Assembly (NCBI GenBank): GCA_017993835.1
Contig: JAGOLX010000003.1
Coordinates: 62,001-126,000 of the forward strand
Direction of reading: 5' to 3'
DNA from: Phycisphaerae bacterium
GTDB lineage: Bacteria; Planctomycetota; Phycisphaerae; Sedimentisphaerales; Anaerobacaceae
DNA: 64,000 bases
Shown here: one piece after another, positions 21,456 to 25,360 of the stretch
Layout: every line of letters begins with the position of its first letter
Numbering within the stretch: position 1 is the stretch's first letter
Notes under the pieces: generated by a model
What the model was told of the DNA's origin: nothing
The model's database searches: none
What the model saw: the letters and a program-made list of their open reading frames with translations, nothing else
Translations under genes and position numbers: made by a program

Positions 21456-22145
21456 CTAAGGGCGGGAGGTCACCGCCTTCGACAGGAAAGGGCGCAAGAC
21501 CCGCGTCCAGACGGCATACCCCTCGGAATTGAGGTGCAACCGGTCGGAGAGGTAGTACTCGGGCTTGGGCGAGCCATCCGCAGCCAACAGGACCGTCGCC
21601 AGGTCGGCGAAGTGGAGACGTTCGTCCCCTTGGCAGAACTCGCGAACCAGATCGTTGGCCTTCTTCATCTCGGGCCAGAGTAACCATCGCTGCCCGCTGG
21701 GCTTGATCGTGATGTAGACGATCCGCGTGGCAGGCAGTTTCGCGTGAACGAGTTCGACGAACCTGCGGTAGTCGTCCGCGACGCGCTGGGCCGACTTGCC
21801 GCCGGCAATATCGTTGTCCCCGGCGTAGAAGACAAGCACTTGCGGATCGTACGGCAAGACCACCCGGTCCAAGTAGTGAATGACGTCGGAGACGTGGCAG
21901 CCCCCGAATCCCCGGTTGACGACGGGGAGATCGGGAAAGGACTCGCGCGTCCGCCACATCCGAATGCTGGAACTTCCGACGAACAGCACGGGGTCCGCGG
22001 GAGCCGCGTTCTTGCTGTCCCACTCCGAGAAAGCCCTGATTTCCCCGGCGAAGCGATTCGGGTCCGGGTCCACAGCCACTTGCCCCGAGGACACCACGAC
22101 CGCCACCGACAGAATCGACATCACCAGGATCTGGCCTGCTGACAT
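21456..22145 (-). CDS. Secreted SGNH/GDSL hydrolase
   Basis: 229 residues with a signal peptide (about 1-22). Block I is VLFVGSSSIRMW (nucleophile Ser in GSS, 57-60), block II is NRGFGGCHVSD, block III is YAGDNDIA and block V is SDRLHLNSEG (Asp and His of the triad). These are the platelet-activating-factor acetylhydrolase-like esterases, which commonly deacetylate polysaccharides or cleave small esters. It is transcribed with or just before the pilin-like/GHL10 pair (the promoter of that pair lies between them). AAGGG precedes the ATG. Confidence 0.9.
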   Translation of the reverse strand: MSAGQILVMSILSVAVVVSSGQVAVDPDPNRFAGEIRAFSEWDSKNAAPADPVLFVGSSSIRMWRTRESFPDLPVVNRGFGGCHVSDVIHYLDRVVLPYDPQVLVFYAGDNDIAGGKSAQRVADDYRRFVELVHAKLPATRIVYITIKPSGQRWLLWPEMKKANDLVREFCQGDERLHFADLATVLLAADGSPKPEYYLSDRLHLNSEGYAVWTRVLRPFLSKAVTSRP

Positions 22146-22657
22146 ATGCTTGCCCTTTCATCCTTGGCACCGAAACGGGTCTGCGATCGAACCCACAGCC
22201 CGCACGAATCGTACCGTTCTGCGTTCCACGATGCAAATGTCTTGTGAACTTCCCGTTGCACTCTGTCAGACAACTTGAGCGACAGCGGGGCTTGACACGG
22301 AAGTGCATCCTGGTATAATCGGGGCATGTTTCAGGTGCATGGAAATGGCAACCTCATGGATACATCCTGTGTTCTCCGCGAGGGGGACGTTGCAAGGCGA
22401 GCGTTCCCGTTGGTGGCCTCCGTGCAATCTCGCTGGACCTGTCCTTCGGAACAAGCATCCGCACCTTCCTCGCAGCGATGATCCCCCTACTGGCACGACC
22501 TCGTAGGGAGATGTTGCGCCGTTCCGGCATTCCTTCGACCTGCCATGCTCAGGCCTCCACATTGGCATAGGAACGCGCAGATCGCGAACGGTCTGGCGTG
22601 CATTTCCCGCTGATTCATGACCCGGATGATGTATATCGAAAGGAAAGGAGATACCCC
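22146..22657. other. 512-base region with a strong promoter and long leader
   Basis: It lies between the divergent SGNH hydrolase and Rnk-like genes. The plus-strand promoter at 22292-22319 would give a leader of about 330 bases before the Rnk-fusion gene. An ATG at 22326 opens a 51-codon frame inside the leader, but this coincides with the predicted transcription start and has no ribosome binding site. I see no obvious riboswitch consensus. Confidence 0.45.
22292..22319 (+). promoter_or_regulatory. Strong sigma-70 promoter of the Rnk-like genes
   Basis: A perfect TTGACA (22292-22297) and a perfect TATAAT (22314-22319) are separated by 16 bases. It is one of the two strongest promoter matches in the window. 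Confidence 0.75.
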
Positions 22658-23362
22658 ATGAACGAGGCAAAAGTACGAGAGATCGTGGGCGAGACCGTCG
22701 CCCGGACGCCAATCGAGCCCTGGAAGTACTACCACGTGTGCTGGTGGGAAGGGAGAATCCAGTGCCTCCATGTCCACCACACGAAGGAAGCCCACCCCGT
22801 CTTCTACGGCGCTCCCGGACAGGTGTTCGCCGACGGACTGACCCCGCGCCAGTGGCAACTGATGGTGGACCGGGTCATGGATTTCTGTCGGACGCGCAAC
22901 ATCAAACTGGCGACGCTGTCCGCAAGACCCTGGGGCAAGACGCGCCGGAAACCGGGCCAAGGCGGGCTCCAGATCACGGAGTTCGACTCCGTGCGTCTGC
23001 GGGCGATGATCGCGAGCATCCAGTCGCCCGAATCGCCGTCGAACACACTGCTGGACCGGCTCCGGTGTCTGCTGGAGTCCGCCCACACGGTCCCCCCCCA
23101 GGACGTGCCGTCGGACGTCGTGACGATGAACTCCCAGGTGCGTCTGAAGGACGATGAGAAGAACAGCGAGATGACCGTGTCCCTCGTCTTTCCGCTGGAC
23201 TCAGTAAGAGACAAGAGAGACTTCGATGAGCTGAACGTCTCAGTCCTCTCCCCGATCGGCCTGTCGATCCTGGGTCGACGGGTGGGCGACACTCTGGACG
23301 GGCGCATCCGGGTCGACCGGCTGTTGTACCAGCCGGAAGCCGCTGGGGATTTTCACCTCTGA
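22658..23362 (+). CDS. Two-domain protein: unknown N-terminal domain fused to Rnk/GreA-C-like domain
   Basis: 234 residues. The C-terminal part (about 140-234) matches the Rnk/GreA-GreB C-terminal FKBP-like fold: DVVTMNSQVRLKDDE, MTVSLVFPLDSV and SVLSPIGLSILGRRVGD. This fold binds RNA polymerase near the secondary channel, or acts as Rnk. The N-terminal 115 residues (with YYHVCWWEGRIQCLHVHHTK) match nothing I recognise; the region has clustered His, Trp and Cys. GGAG precedes the ATG at 22658 by seven to eight bases. The last residues (RVDRLLYQPEAAGDFHL) are nearly those of the next gene, so the two arose by duplication. Confidence 0.82.
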   Translation: MNEAKVREIVGETVARTPIEPWKYYHVCWWEGRIQCLHVHHTKEAHPVFYGAPGQVFADGLTPRQWQLMVDRVMDFCRTRNIKLATLSARPWGKTRRKPGQGGLQITEFDSVRLRAMIASIQSPESPSNTLLDRLRCLLESAHTVPPQDVPSDVVTMNSQVRLKDDEKNSEMTVSLVFPLDSVRDKRDFDELNVSVLSPIGLSILGRRVGDTLDGRIRVDRLLYQPEAAGDFHL

Positions 23363-23448
23363 ACTCGCGGCAAACCCGATGGATCGCGCGGACCGAGCGG
23401 TGAGACAGGCAGGAAAACCGATCTCGCAGACGGAAAGGAGACGATGCC

Positions 23449-23859
23449 ATGGCGGAAGAACAGACGCGACAGTTGGTGACGGACCTCGACCGCAAACGGC
23501 TGCAGATCCTGCTTGCCGCCGCGAGGGCGTCACAGCCCGAGATCATGGCTTGGCTGGAGACACTCCAGCAGTTGCTGGAGACGGCCGATGTCATACCCGC
23601 GGAGGACGTCCCGCCGAATGTCATCACGATGAACTCCGAGGTGCGACTGTGGAACAACGACACCGCCAGAGAGATGACCTTGTCTCTGGTGTTCCCGGCT
23701 GATGCACGCGGCAGCGACATGGACAAGGTCAAACTCTCGGTCCTGACCCATCTGGGGATGTCCATACTCGGCCGAAGGGTCGGCGACGTTGTCGAGGACA
23801 GCATCCGAATCGACAGACTGCTGTACCAGCCGGAGGCAGCGGGTCACTTCGACCAGTAG
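23449..23859 (+). CDS. Rnk-like nucleoside diphosphate kinase regulator
   Basis: 136 residues, the same length as E. coli Rnk. A helical N-terminus (about 1-50) is followed by the GreA/GreB-C-like domain: NVITMNSEVRLWNND, MTLSLVFPADARGSD and SVLTHLGMSILGRRVGD. Family members bind RNA polymerase; E. coli Rnk affects Ndk expression, but the role here is inferred only. AAAGGAG lies seven bases before the ATG. It follows its longer paralogue by 86 bases and shares its promoter. Confidence 0.87.
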   Translation: MAEEQTRQLVTDLDRKRLQILLAAARASQPEIMAWLETLQQLLETADVIPAEDVPPNVITMNSEVRLWNNDTAREMTLSLVFPADARGSDMDKVKLSVLTHLGMSILGRRVGDVVEDSIRIDRLLYQPEAAGHFDQ

Positions 23860-23912
23860 AACGCACGCCCCCACTGTGGACTGGGAATTCGGAGCATCGT
23901 TAGCCGAGGACG

Positions 23913-24488
23913 TCACGGGCGTGAAGGCGGGGAACCGGCCTCGCCGGTGAAACCGGACGGGCTGCGATCCGGCTTTCCGCCAGCCGCCAGGAGCGAACTG
24001 ATGATGTCCATGCCGCGTTTGCCGCTGTTCTTCGCGATGTCGCCAATGGACTGGCTCTCGCCGGACACCTGGAAGCCCTGGCCCTTCAGGAAGGCGACCG
24101 ATTCTTCCGCGGAGACACCGAGCACCGGCGCCACCTGGGCCAGGGATGCGCCCTCGATGCGGGCGAAGATCTCCATCGGCGACCTGCCTCTGCGAGAGCC
24201 GTTCCCGCCGCTGCCCGTGAATAGGAGCACGACGAGGACCGTCACGACGACCGCCAGAACGATCGTCAGCGGCTTTCGCACATACGCAACGAAACAACCC
24301 CAGTTGACGACCAGGTGAGCCGCTGCAGCCACGACGAACACGATGCTGACCATCTCGTGGAATTCCTTGATCGTCGCACTCTTGACGTCGACGAGCATCA
24401 GAACGCCCGTGAGGGCCACGATAACGAACGACGCCGTGGTGATCGGCGTGATGGTCGACCGCTTCCAGAGTCCCGCGAACTTTGCCAT
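23913..24488 (-). CDS. DUF4405-type membrane protein
   Basis: 191 residues. The N-terminal half has three membrane helices (about 16-34, 46-66, 74-92). It includes TASFVIVALTGVLMLVDV and EFHEMVSIVFVVAAAAHLVV, where the spaced histidines fit the haem ligands proposed for DUF4405 (flavinylation-associated cytochrome-like). The C-terminal half is soluble and contains a helical repeat-like segment ASLAQVAPVLGVSAEESVA that recurs in membrane-anchored redox proteins. AGGA lies seven bases before the ATG at 24488, so this start is preferred to 24494. Convergent with the Rnk-like genes. Confidence 0.8.
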   Translation of the reverse strand: MAKFAGLWKRSTITPITTASFVIVALTGVLMLVDVKSATIKEFHEMVSIVFVVAAAAHLVVNWGCFVAYVRKPLTIVLAVVVTVLVVLLFTGSGGNGSRRGRSPMEIFARIEGASLAQVAPVLGVSAEESVAFLKGQGFQVSGESQSIGDIAKNSGKRGMDIISSLLAAGGKPDRSPSGFTGEAGSPPSRP

Positions 24489-24649
24489 TGACATATCCTT
24501 TCCAGTTCCGCTCCAATGAATTCACGTTGGGGAGAGCGATAAAAGGGTGCCGATGGCTCTGTGTAGATCGCCGTTCAGCGAAGAAAACACACCGACACCC
24601 CTTCGTATAGGAGCTTGTTCCGGGCCTGGGAGCCCGGCGAGAGTAGAGC

Positions 24650-25360
24650 CTATTCCAACCCCCTTTTCTTCAGCGTCACACTGACCCCGCCGGCCTGCGT
24701 GTAGAAGATGGTTTCGAGGTCCGGGTTCGTCGTGATGGCCTCCACGAATTTCGCATCCGCCATCTGGGGGGTTACGTTGTGACCGACGATCAGACCGCCC
24801 GGACGGACCTTGGGCAGCAGCTTGGTCAGATAGTCGACGTACCCTTCTTTGTCCGCATCGATAAACACGACATCGACAGGGCCGGCAACTTCCACCACCT
24901 TCTCATGTGCGTCTCCTTCGACGAGCGTGACGATGTCGTCTACGCCGGCCTTCCGGAAGTTCTGTCGGGCCAGTGCCGCACGCGCCGGGTCGATCTCGAA
25001 GGTGGTCAGCTTGCCGCCCGTGGCCTTCAAGGCCAGGCACAGCCAGAGCCCGGAGTAACCGTTCGATGTGCCGATTTCGACGACCTGCCTGGCTCCGGTG
25101 GACTCGGCCAAGAGCCGGAGGAATCGCCCGTCCTCGATGGGGACGTTCATATTGCCCCCCCGCTGGTTGCGGTCCATTTCGTCCAGCACGTCGAGAATCG
25201 CTTTCTCCTTGGCGTTCCTGGCCATGGGGGCCTTGTTTGTGAAGCCTTGTAGGCCGCCCCGTCCTCGCCTGCCGCCGGGTCCCGGCTGAGCCAGGAGCAG
25301 GCCGCCTGCGATCAGCACGGTGGTTCCCACAAGACCGATCCAGACTCTCTTGGACATCAT
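24650..25360 (-). CDS. Exported class I O-methyltransferase-like protein
   Basis: 236 residues. Residues 1-25 (MMSKRVWIGLVGTTVLIAGG then LLLAQPG) look like a Sec signal peptide or anchor. The rest is a catechol/caffeoyl-CoA O-methyltransferase-type fold: VVEIGTSNGYSGLWL (SAM motif I), TTFEIDPARAALARQNF, VDVVFIDADKEGYVDYL and GGLIVGHNVT. The SAM-binding residues appear intact, so an extracytoplasmic location would be odd, since SAM is not known there; the segment may instead anchor the enzyme with its domain inside. AAAGGA lies seven bases before the ATG. Confidence 0.83.
   Translation of the reverse strand: MMSKRVWIGLVGTTVLIAGGLLLAQPGPGGRRGRGGLQGFTNKAPMARNAKEKAILDVLDEMDRNQRGGNMNVPIEDGRFLRLLAESTGARQVVEIGTSNGYSGLWLCLALKATGGKLTTFEIDPARAALARQNFRKAGVDDIVTLVEGDAHEKVVEVAGPVDVVFIDADKEGYVDYLTKLLPKVRPGGLIVGHNVTPQMADAKFVEAITTNPDLETIFYTQAGGVSVTLKKRGLE

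Follow-up and report, generated by a model that had tools for sequence, protein, structure and literature searches.

The window, a 64,000-nucleotide stretch of a contig from a Phycisphaerae bacterium, carries two adjacent plus-strand open reading frames, so the tandem genes described in the initial annotation of this DNA are real. The first (22658 to 23362; 22658 to 23359 plus the stop codon) encodes a 234-aa protein, P0001, and the second (23449 to 23859; 23449 to 23856 plus the stop codon) a 136-aa protein, P0002; both are read in one direction across a gap of 86 bp, and GGAAAGGAGA lies ahead of each. P0001 is composed of an N-terminal putative metal-binding domain (N-domain; residues 1 to 88, positions 22658 to 22921, plus strand), a variable linker (residues 89 to 102, positions 22922 to 22963, plus strand) and a complete Rnk-type region (residues 103 to 234, positions 22964 to 23359, plus strand), the last consisting of a short two-helix part and a GreA/GreB C-terminal domain. 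P0002 is an Rnk-type protein without the N-domain. The extra length of P0001, put at about 115 residues in the initial annotation, is about 98 to 103 residues, domain and linker together.

The flanking genes are on the minus strand: a GDSL-type hydrolase gene (21456 to 22145), a gene for a 193-aa protein judged by eye to be a membrane protein (23913 to 24494) and an O-methyltransferase gene (24650 to 25360). The hydrolase and methyltransferase genes recur as flanks in relatives, and the 193-aa protein is also a flank in genomes G005 and G004. A tRNA at 182 to 255 is the only Rfam match in the window at the gathering threshold, and scans of 22300 to 24000 returned no promoter-like site and two terminator-like sites on the minus strand, versus 0.9 expected. 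The surrounding genome of 6.4 Mb has four places with the GreA/GreB C-terminal domain PF01272, namely, one GreA-like gene, two genes in which the N-domain is fused to an Rnk part, and P0002. The best outside matches of P0001 are Planctomycetota and Phycisphaerae records.

A GreA-C/Rnk-like domain had been proposed for both genes, and it is borne out by PF01272 scores of 45.1 bits (P0001) and 40.2 bits (P0002) against a Pfam cut-off of 26.9 and by the identity of 61 of 127 residues between the two proteins (48%; BLASTP, P0001 residues 106 to 232). Rnk_N (PF14760) stays below its Pfam cut-off of 23.7 bits in both, at 15 and 14.3, and a Pfam scan at E ≤ 1 gave no match to the GreA N-terminal family. 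Since the NCBIfam Rnk equivalog NF004396, with a cut-off of 109 bits, scores 72.1 for P0001 and 76.2 for P0002, we file both proteins as Rnk-type rather than as Rnk equivalogs. In the full-length model of P0001, the helices at 108 to 121 and 130 to 141 are only 14 and 12 residues long, the Rnk part keeps the layout of the Escherichia coli Rnk family, and the best PDB match is Rnk itself (3bmb; Foldseek E of 9.3e-13, TM of 0.78 on the target); the best PDB matches of P0002 by sequence are likewise Rnk-type structures. The GreA/GreB C-terminal domain, the short helical part and Rnk as the closest fold together place P0001 among Rnk-type proteins. Its residues Y224 to G230 do not vary in any of the 42 rows of alignment A5, a count that is inflated because the pattern YQPEAAGD fetched most of those rows, and plain planctomycete rows, i.e., those with an Rnk part only, are variable past YQPE. 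The shared ending to which the initial annotation pointed is thus real, but it does not tie the two genes to each other in any special way, since E. coli Rnk ends in YQPEAAG too.

E. coli Rnk binds RNA polymerase (RNAP) and competes with Gre factors, according to a 2015 review, which gives the function of Rnk as unknown (PMC4598747). One position differs notably between P0001 and P0002. Pro199 of P0001, a Pro in 39 of the 42 A5 rows, is His101 in P0002; the related G003 gene also has His there, and the G006 gene has Asp. Such a change could affect binding, but the hint is weak, because the Pro is also missing from 12 of 39 planctomycete rows (three of the 22 fused rows and nine of the 17 plain ones). 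In GreA, S121P impairs RNAP binding and S124L keeps it, as stated in PMC7527559. GreA S121 and S124 do not map onto Rnk positions with certainty, so that weaker RNAP binding by P0002 would be only a guess by analogy.

The N-domain is strongly conserved. In an alignment of 31 rows, chosen by similarity and 15 to 65% identical to P0001, His26, Cys28, His41 and His46 are invariant (31/31), Trp30, Cys36, Thr42 and Phe49 are nearly so, and His38 and His40 vary. By its conserved set of three His and one Cys, every one of these rows qualifies as a putative zinc-binding domain; outside the alignment, L160, L162 and a branch of PilZ-type proteins described below lack the full ligand set. The conserved set overall comprises His26, Cys28, Trp30, Cys36, His41, His46 and Phe49. 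The string emphasized in the initial annotation, CWWEGRIQCLHVHH, is present at residues 28 to 41, and among the residues stressed there His38 and His40 vary; for this reason, CLHVHH was rejected in detail as the metal motif. Cys36 is probably a core residue: the ligand-free PilZ branch retains it, two ligand-bearing rows (L135 and L144) lack it, and the strand register would point it away from His26 and Cys28.

Compared to the nearest relative, in G005, dN/dS is 0.18/0.77, or about 0.23, for the N-domain and 0.14/0.78 for the Rnk part (NG86), with 4 of 14 linker residues kept. Conservation and dN/dS therefore indicate that the N-domain is maintained, and a decayed sequence is ruled out. Searched alone, the domain has conserved homologues at 31 places in 16 of the 89 genomes of the family (the window's own included), at odds with a region that is absent from all homologues or decayed, the outcome named as adverse in the initial annotation. 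It carries no family name in the libraries searched, Pfam and NCBIfam among them. Residues 1 to 122 of P0001 gave no Pfam or NCBIfam match for the N-terminal part at E ≤ 1, and a Pfam scan of 22 N-domain members hit five families, each in one member only, with a best E of 0.0029.

The domain boundary and the conservation, family relations and synteny reported here were computed, and the fold is predicted. An AlphaFold model of the N-domain (8 rows, 94 residues) reached a pLDDT of 91.1 and a pTM of 0.81, the five models ranging from 91.1 to 77.9, with a helix at 3 to 16, strands at 24 to 30, 33 to 38 and 48 to 53, and helices at 54 to 59 and 63 to 80. The full-length model (42 rows) keeps this fold; since residues 90 to 100 have a pLDDT of <50 and the pTM is 0.59, it does not fix the relative placement of the two domains. 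Fold searches with the N-domain model gave no match at E ≤ 0.001 in the PDB or among viral models (best Foldseek E of 0.15). The C-terminal domain of Fe/Mn superoxide dismutase gave the best VIA-align Z, 4.7 (rmsd of 3.1, 74 aligned), a level that the tool calls common.

Profile searches found no significant PDB match either. The best one, over about 30 positions, was the ulvan lyase PL25 structure 5uam, with an E of 0.055 (alignment A1) or 0.023 (A3), which is weak and not significant alone. The matched residues are His, Cys and His at chain positions 240, 242 and 254, and the alignment contains a one-residue gap, with HxC-x12-H in P0001 versus HxC-x11-H in 5uam. PMC13193363 lists the PL25 zinc ligands as His208, His264, Cys266 and His278; from the spacing of 2 and 12 residues, the matched positions would be His264, Cys266 and His278, and His26, Cys28 and His41 of P0001 would then correspond to three zinc ligands. 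The fourth PL25 ligand is outside the matched stretch. His46 is our choice as a candidate fourth ligand, and the 5uam residue that matches it is outside the listed ligands. P0001 does not belong to PL25 by fold, the 94-residue model being alpha-beta-beta-beta-alpha and no beta-propeller, and this weak likeness to a different fold may be convergent or due to chance.

The suggestion of an Rnk-type factor with a domain that may bind metal is therefore strengthened by invariant His and Cys residues, conservation and a confident fold. It is unlikely, in our judgment, that the His and Cys residues serve only as core or catalytic residues without metal and that the ulvan lyase likeness is chance. Such a reading can appeal to the sole outside match being weak (E of 0.023) and in an unrelated fold, and to the existence of relatives without the ligand set, but three of the four invariant positions align, with the one-residue gap, to zinc ligands. 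The same relatives, which have the same fold, indicate that metal is not needed for folding. Metal binding by His26, Cys28, His41 and His46 is what we infer.

The distribution of the N-domain is narrow. Besides the 16 family genomes, it was found in 7 of the 9 genomes of the genus (the window's own included), in 12 of 397 class genomes and in 1 of 392 genomes of the phylum sample, the window's own. About a dozen first-look candidates were scored per genome in the class and phylum samples, where absence is thus no proof. Eleven of the 12 class genomes are in the same family, and the distant one holds a ligand-free PilZ protein (G043). Together, the four samples suggest that the N-domain is nearly confined to one family. 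With P0002 as the query, 19 of the 89 family genomes yielded 36 Rnk places, of which, by our assignment from comparing searches, 23 have the N-domain upstream and 13 are plain Rnk. One of the 23 fused places is frame-broken (G008, C344:12126). A third N-domain/Rnk copy in G008, L115:7738-8429, has its two parts in different frames and is probably a decaying gene.

The N-domain also stands alone. Two overlapping small stand-alone genes lie directly behind the second fused gene in the window's genome (G000, C34:113212-113798), and others were counted in G005 (two) and G006 (one, beside a fused gene). The domain without Rnk is also seen in one short open reading frame of G075 and in three copies of G100, which has no Rnk match. 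Examples are seen at L110:8210-8937, L112:5467-6194 and L114:1056-1529, with overlapping pairs in L110 and L112, and three of the longer stand-alone genes have a common SPWF.IW-like C-terminal tail. The G100 copies, on short contigs, are all (3/3) directly upstream of or overlapping tyrosine recombinase genes of about 200 aa, and the N-domain-like copy L162 keeps His26 only of the four ligands. Loci that combine an N-domain-like open reading frame and a recombinase are L206:3838-4694, L207:5702-6552, L208:136-1058 and L218:2668-3588. The L206 contig also carries a tail-collar-like gene, according to a PHROG match, as does L208 on reading, and L207 carries a ParB-like gene. L218 is an IMG/VR contig with the same recombinase, and the similar small open reading frame upstream, recognized by eye, has none of the four ligands; it probably belongs to the same fold. 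A tblastn search of phages and plasmids gave no match to the N-domain, and pattern-limited scans of viral contigs with A1 and two G100 copies gave no relative.

Another branch heads longer proteins. In 12 of 161 genomes of the order, a ligand-free version of the N-domain begins such a protein (L160:1090-1734 and L164 to L175), none of the four ligands being present in the G043 protein (L160) or the 11 similar ones. Pfam, run on the G043 protein, finds a PilZ domain there, and the alignments of the other 11 cover most of the G043 protein. Against this PilZ-type profile, the N-domain scores an hhalign probability of 96.8 and an E of 2.8e-10 with a single template. With a chance that we put slightly short of even, the metal site serves structure alone and the N-domain is a protein-interaction adaptor, for a partner or for the polymerase, that senses nothing. 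The same module without ligands in PilZ-type proteins suggests a general adaptor, and the stand-alone copies and those upstream of recombinases fit an interaction module. Nevertheless, all 31 rows keep the ligands, which homologues of the module can do without, and this suggests a role that goes further than stability.

To follow the history of the pair, a tree of the Rnk part, rooted by midpoint only, was built from 64 of 117 rows: 22 fused and 17 plain planctomycete rows, together with 25 of the 75 remaining ones, after three fragments had been removed. One branch (support of 93/97) sets apart 26 rows, namely, all 22 fused ones plus P0002 and three further plain ones; inside this group the partners of P0002 are fused genes of G003 and G006 (87/82). 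Since neither support reaches the star level of the program, the root is at the midpoint and the fused label has to change three times, the tree separates gain from loss only in part. P0002 and the paired G003 and G006 genes have T-H or T-D versus mostly S/T-P in fused genes; T-D is also seen in two other plain rows. Gene order adds to this. Different loci repeat different subsets of a set made up of a GDSL hydrolase gene, a fused gene, a YitT-family gene, the gene for the 193-aa protein and an O-methyltransferase gene. The order in G006 is fused gene, YitT, another fused gene, O-methyltransferase; in the window it is fused gene, P0002, 193-aa protein, O-methyltransferase. The leader and about the first 10 codons of P0002 (plus strand) resemble the start of N-domain genes; in each of seven comparisons, whose targets we chose, the alignment brings the two start codons together. 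The score exceeds all 500 shuffles in two of the seven (both G003 genes) and is reached by 10, 36, 54, 128 and 199 of 500 shuffles in the other five, with a contribution from the ribosome-binding site.

Tree, synteny and the 5' end of P0002 thus point, with moderate confidence, to P0002 as an old paralogue that lost the N-domain in frame; the first gain of the domain predates the pair. The initial annotation had P0001 gaining the domain relative to P0002, which is probably the reverse of what happened. A gain by P0001 after duplication of a plain Rnk gene seems very unlikely to us. In the loci fetched from outside this family, Rnk is plain, so that the N-domain was gained at some earlier point, and the four plain genes within the fused-gene branch are in a poorly resolved part of the tree, both of which leave such a gain some room; but P0002 is inside a mostly fused group and next to two fused genes, though at the supports given above, a fused gene of G006 occupies the corresponding slot, and the start of P0002 matches those of N-domain genes in all of the chosen comparisons. 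Other gene arrangements were seen in passing. Neighbouring plain Rnk-type genes form groups of five in G016, four in L015 and two each in G036 and G010 (loci L209, L015, L210 and L213). An unknown protein of roughly 94 aa is encoded just upstream of the fused gene in 8 of the loci listed (L215:4541-4822, L216:4179-4460 and L131:1869-2150; also L142, L114, L115, L117 and L118), and its L141 copy has no Pfam match. A YitT-family gene is near the fused gene in nine loci (L111, L113, L115, L116, L120, L131, L142, L215 and L216).

Overall, we lean somewhat toward P0001 being an Rnk-type RNAP-binding factor with a metal-holding N-domain and P0002 being a paralogue without the module; binding to metal and polymerase, the tether and decoy roles and the module loss in P0002 are all inferred. 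The C-terminal part of P0001 would dock on RNAP at the secondary channel, as its family suggests, and the compact alpha-beta-beta-beta-alpha domain would use His26, Cys28, His41 and His46 to hold one metal ion, most likely zinc. On the tether that the disordered linker would provide, the module might either signal the state of metal or redox or bring a partner to the polymerase. Stand-alone module proteins, some beside fused genes, could act as decoys that compete for the module's partner, and P0002 would keep the Rnk part only, after losing the module. We hold it doubtful that the N-domain, as a sensor of metal or redox state, turns the Rnk part on and off: the three His and one Cys are of the type found in the nickel site of HpNikR and the linker is flexible in the model, but no metal-transport or metal-stress gene was recognized among the few neighbours scanned, the recurring ones being a GDSL hydrolase, a YitT-family membrane protein and an O-methyltransferase. 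Such a sensing role and, given RNAP binding, a competition of the pair for one site were raised in the initial annotation, both as conjectures. A broader proposal, which we regard as unlikely, is that the N-domain founds a so far undescribed family of modules in planctomycetes and small phage-like elements, one that is joined to Rnk with a metal site and to PilZ (cyclic-di-GMP-type) proteins without it, and that neighbours tyrosine recombinases; in Rnk fusions it would switch transcription elongation in response to metal or redox state, with free-standing copies tuning the switch. The Rnk part is known, and the fusion and its N-domain were not found in the libraries and literature searched: no report linking Rnk, planctomycetes and RNA polymerase was found, and no GreA-zinc finger fusion of this kind among titles and the beginnings of abstracts. 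With 23 of 36 Rnk-type places in 89 genomes carrying a conserved, probably metal-binding domain, the N-domain could offer a handle on what such factors respond to.

Among known systems, E. coli Rnk (3bmb; NF004396) is the closest to both proteins, sharing the short two-helix segment, the GreA-type C domain and the ending, whereas P0001 has an additional N-terminal domain, scores under the NCBIfam cut-off and lacks a 7-residue hairpin stretch present in the non-planctomycete Rnk rows shown. The GreA/GreB cleavage factors and Gfh1 have in common with the window proteins the C-terminal domain PF01272 above cut-off, but P0001 and P0002 have no GreA N-terminal match and the model helices of P0001 are short. 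PRK14720 (NF011309), a long GreA-domain protein, also has a GreA-type C domain after additional N-terminal sequence; its C-terminal part is matched by P0001 and P0002, far under the cut-off of this 906-position model, and the match leaves out the N-domain. Ulvan lyase PL25 shares the HxC-H arrangement, one residue shorter and with three zinc ligands in it, but it is a beta-propeller enzyme with its fourth ligand elsewhere. The PilZ-type proteins of related planctomycetes (G043 and 11 others) possess a homologous N-terminal module in which the His/Cys ligands are absent and which PilZ, not Rnk, follows, by Pfam for G043 and by similarity for the others.
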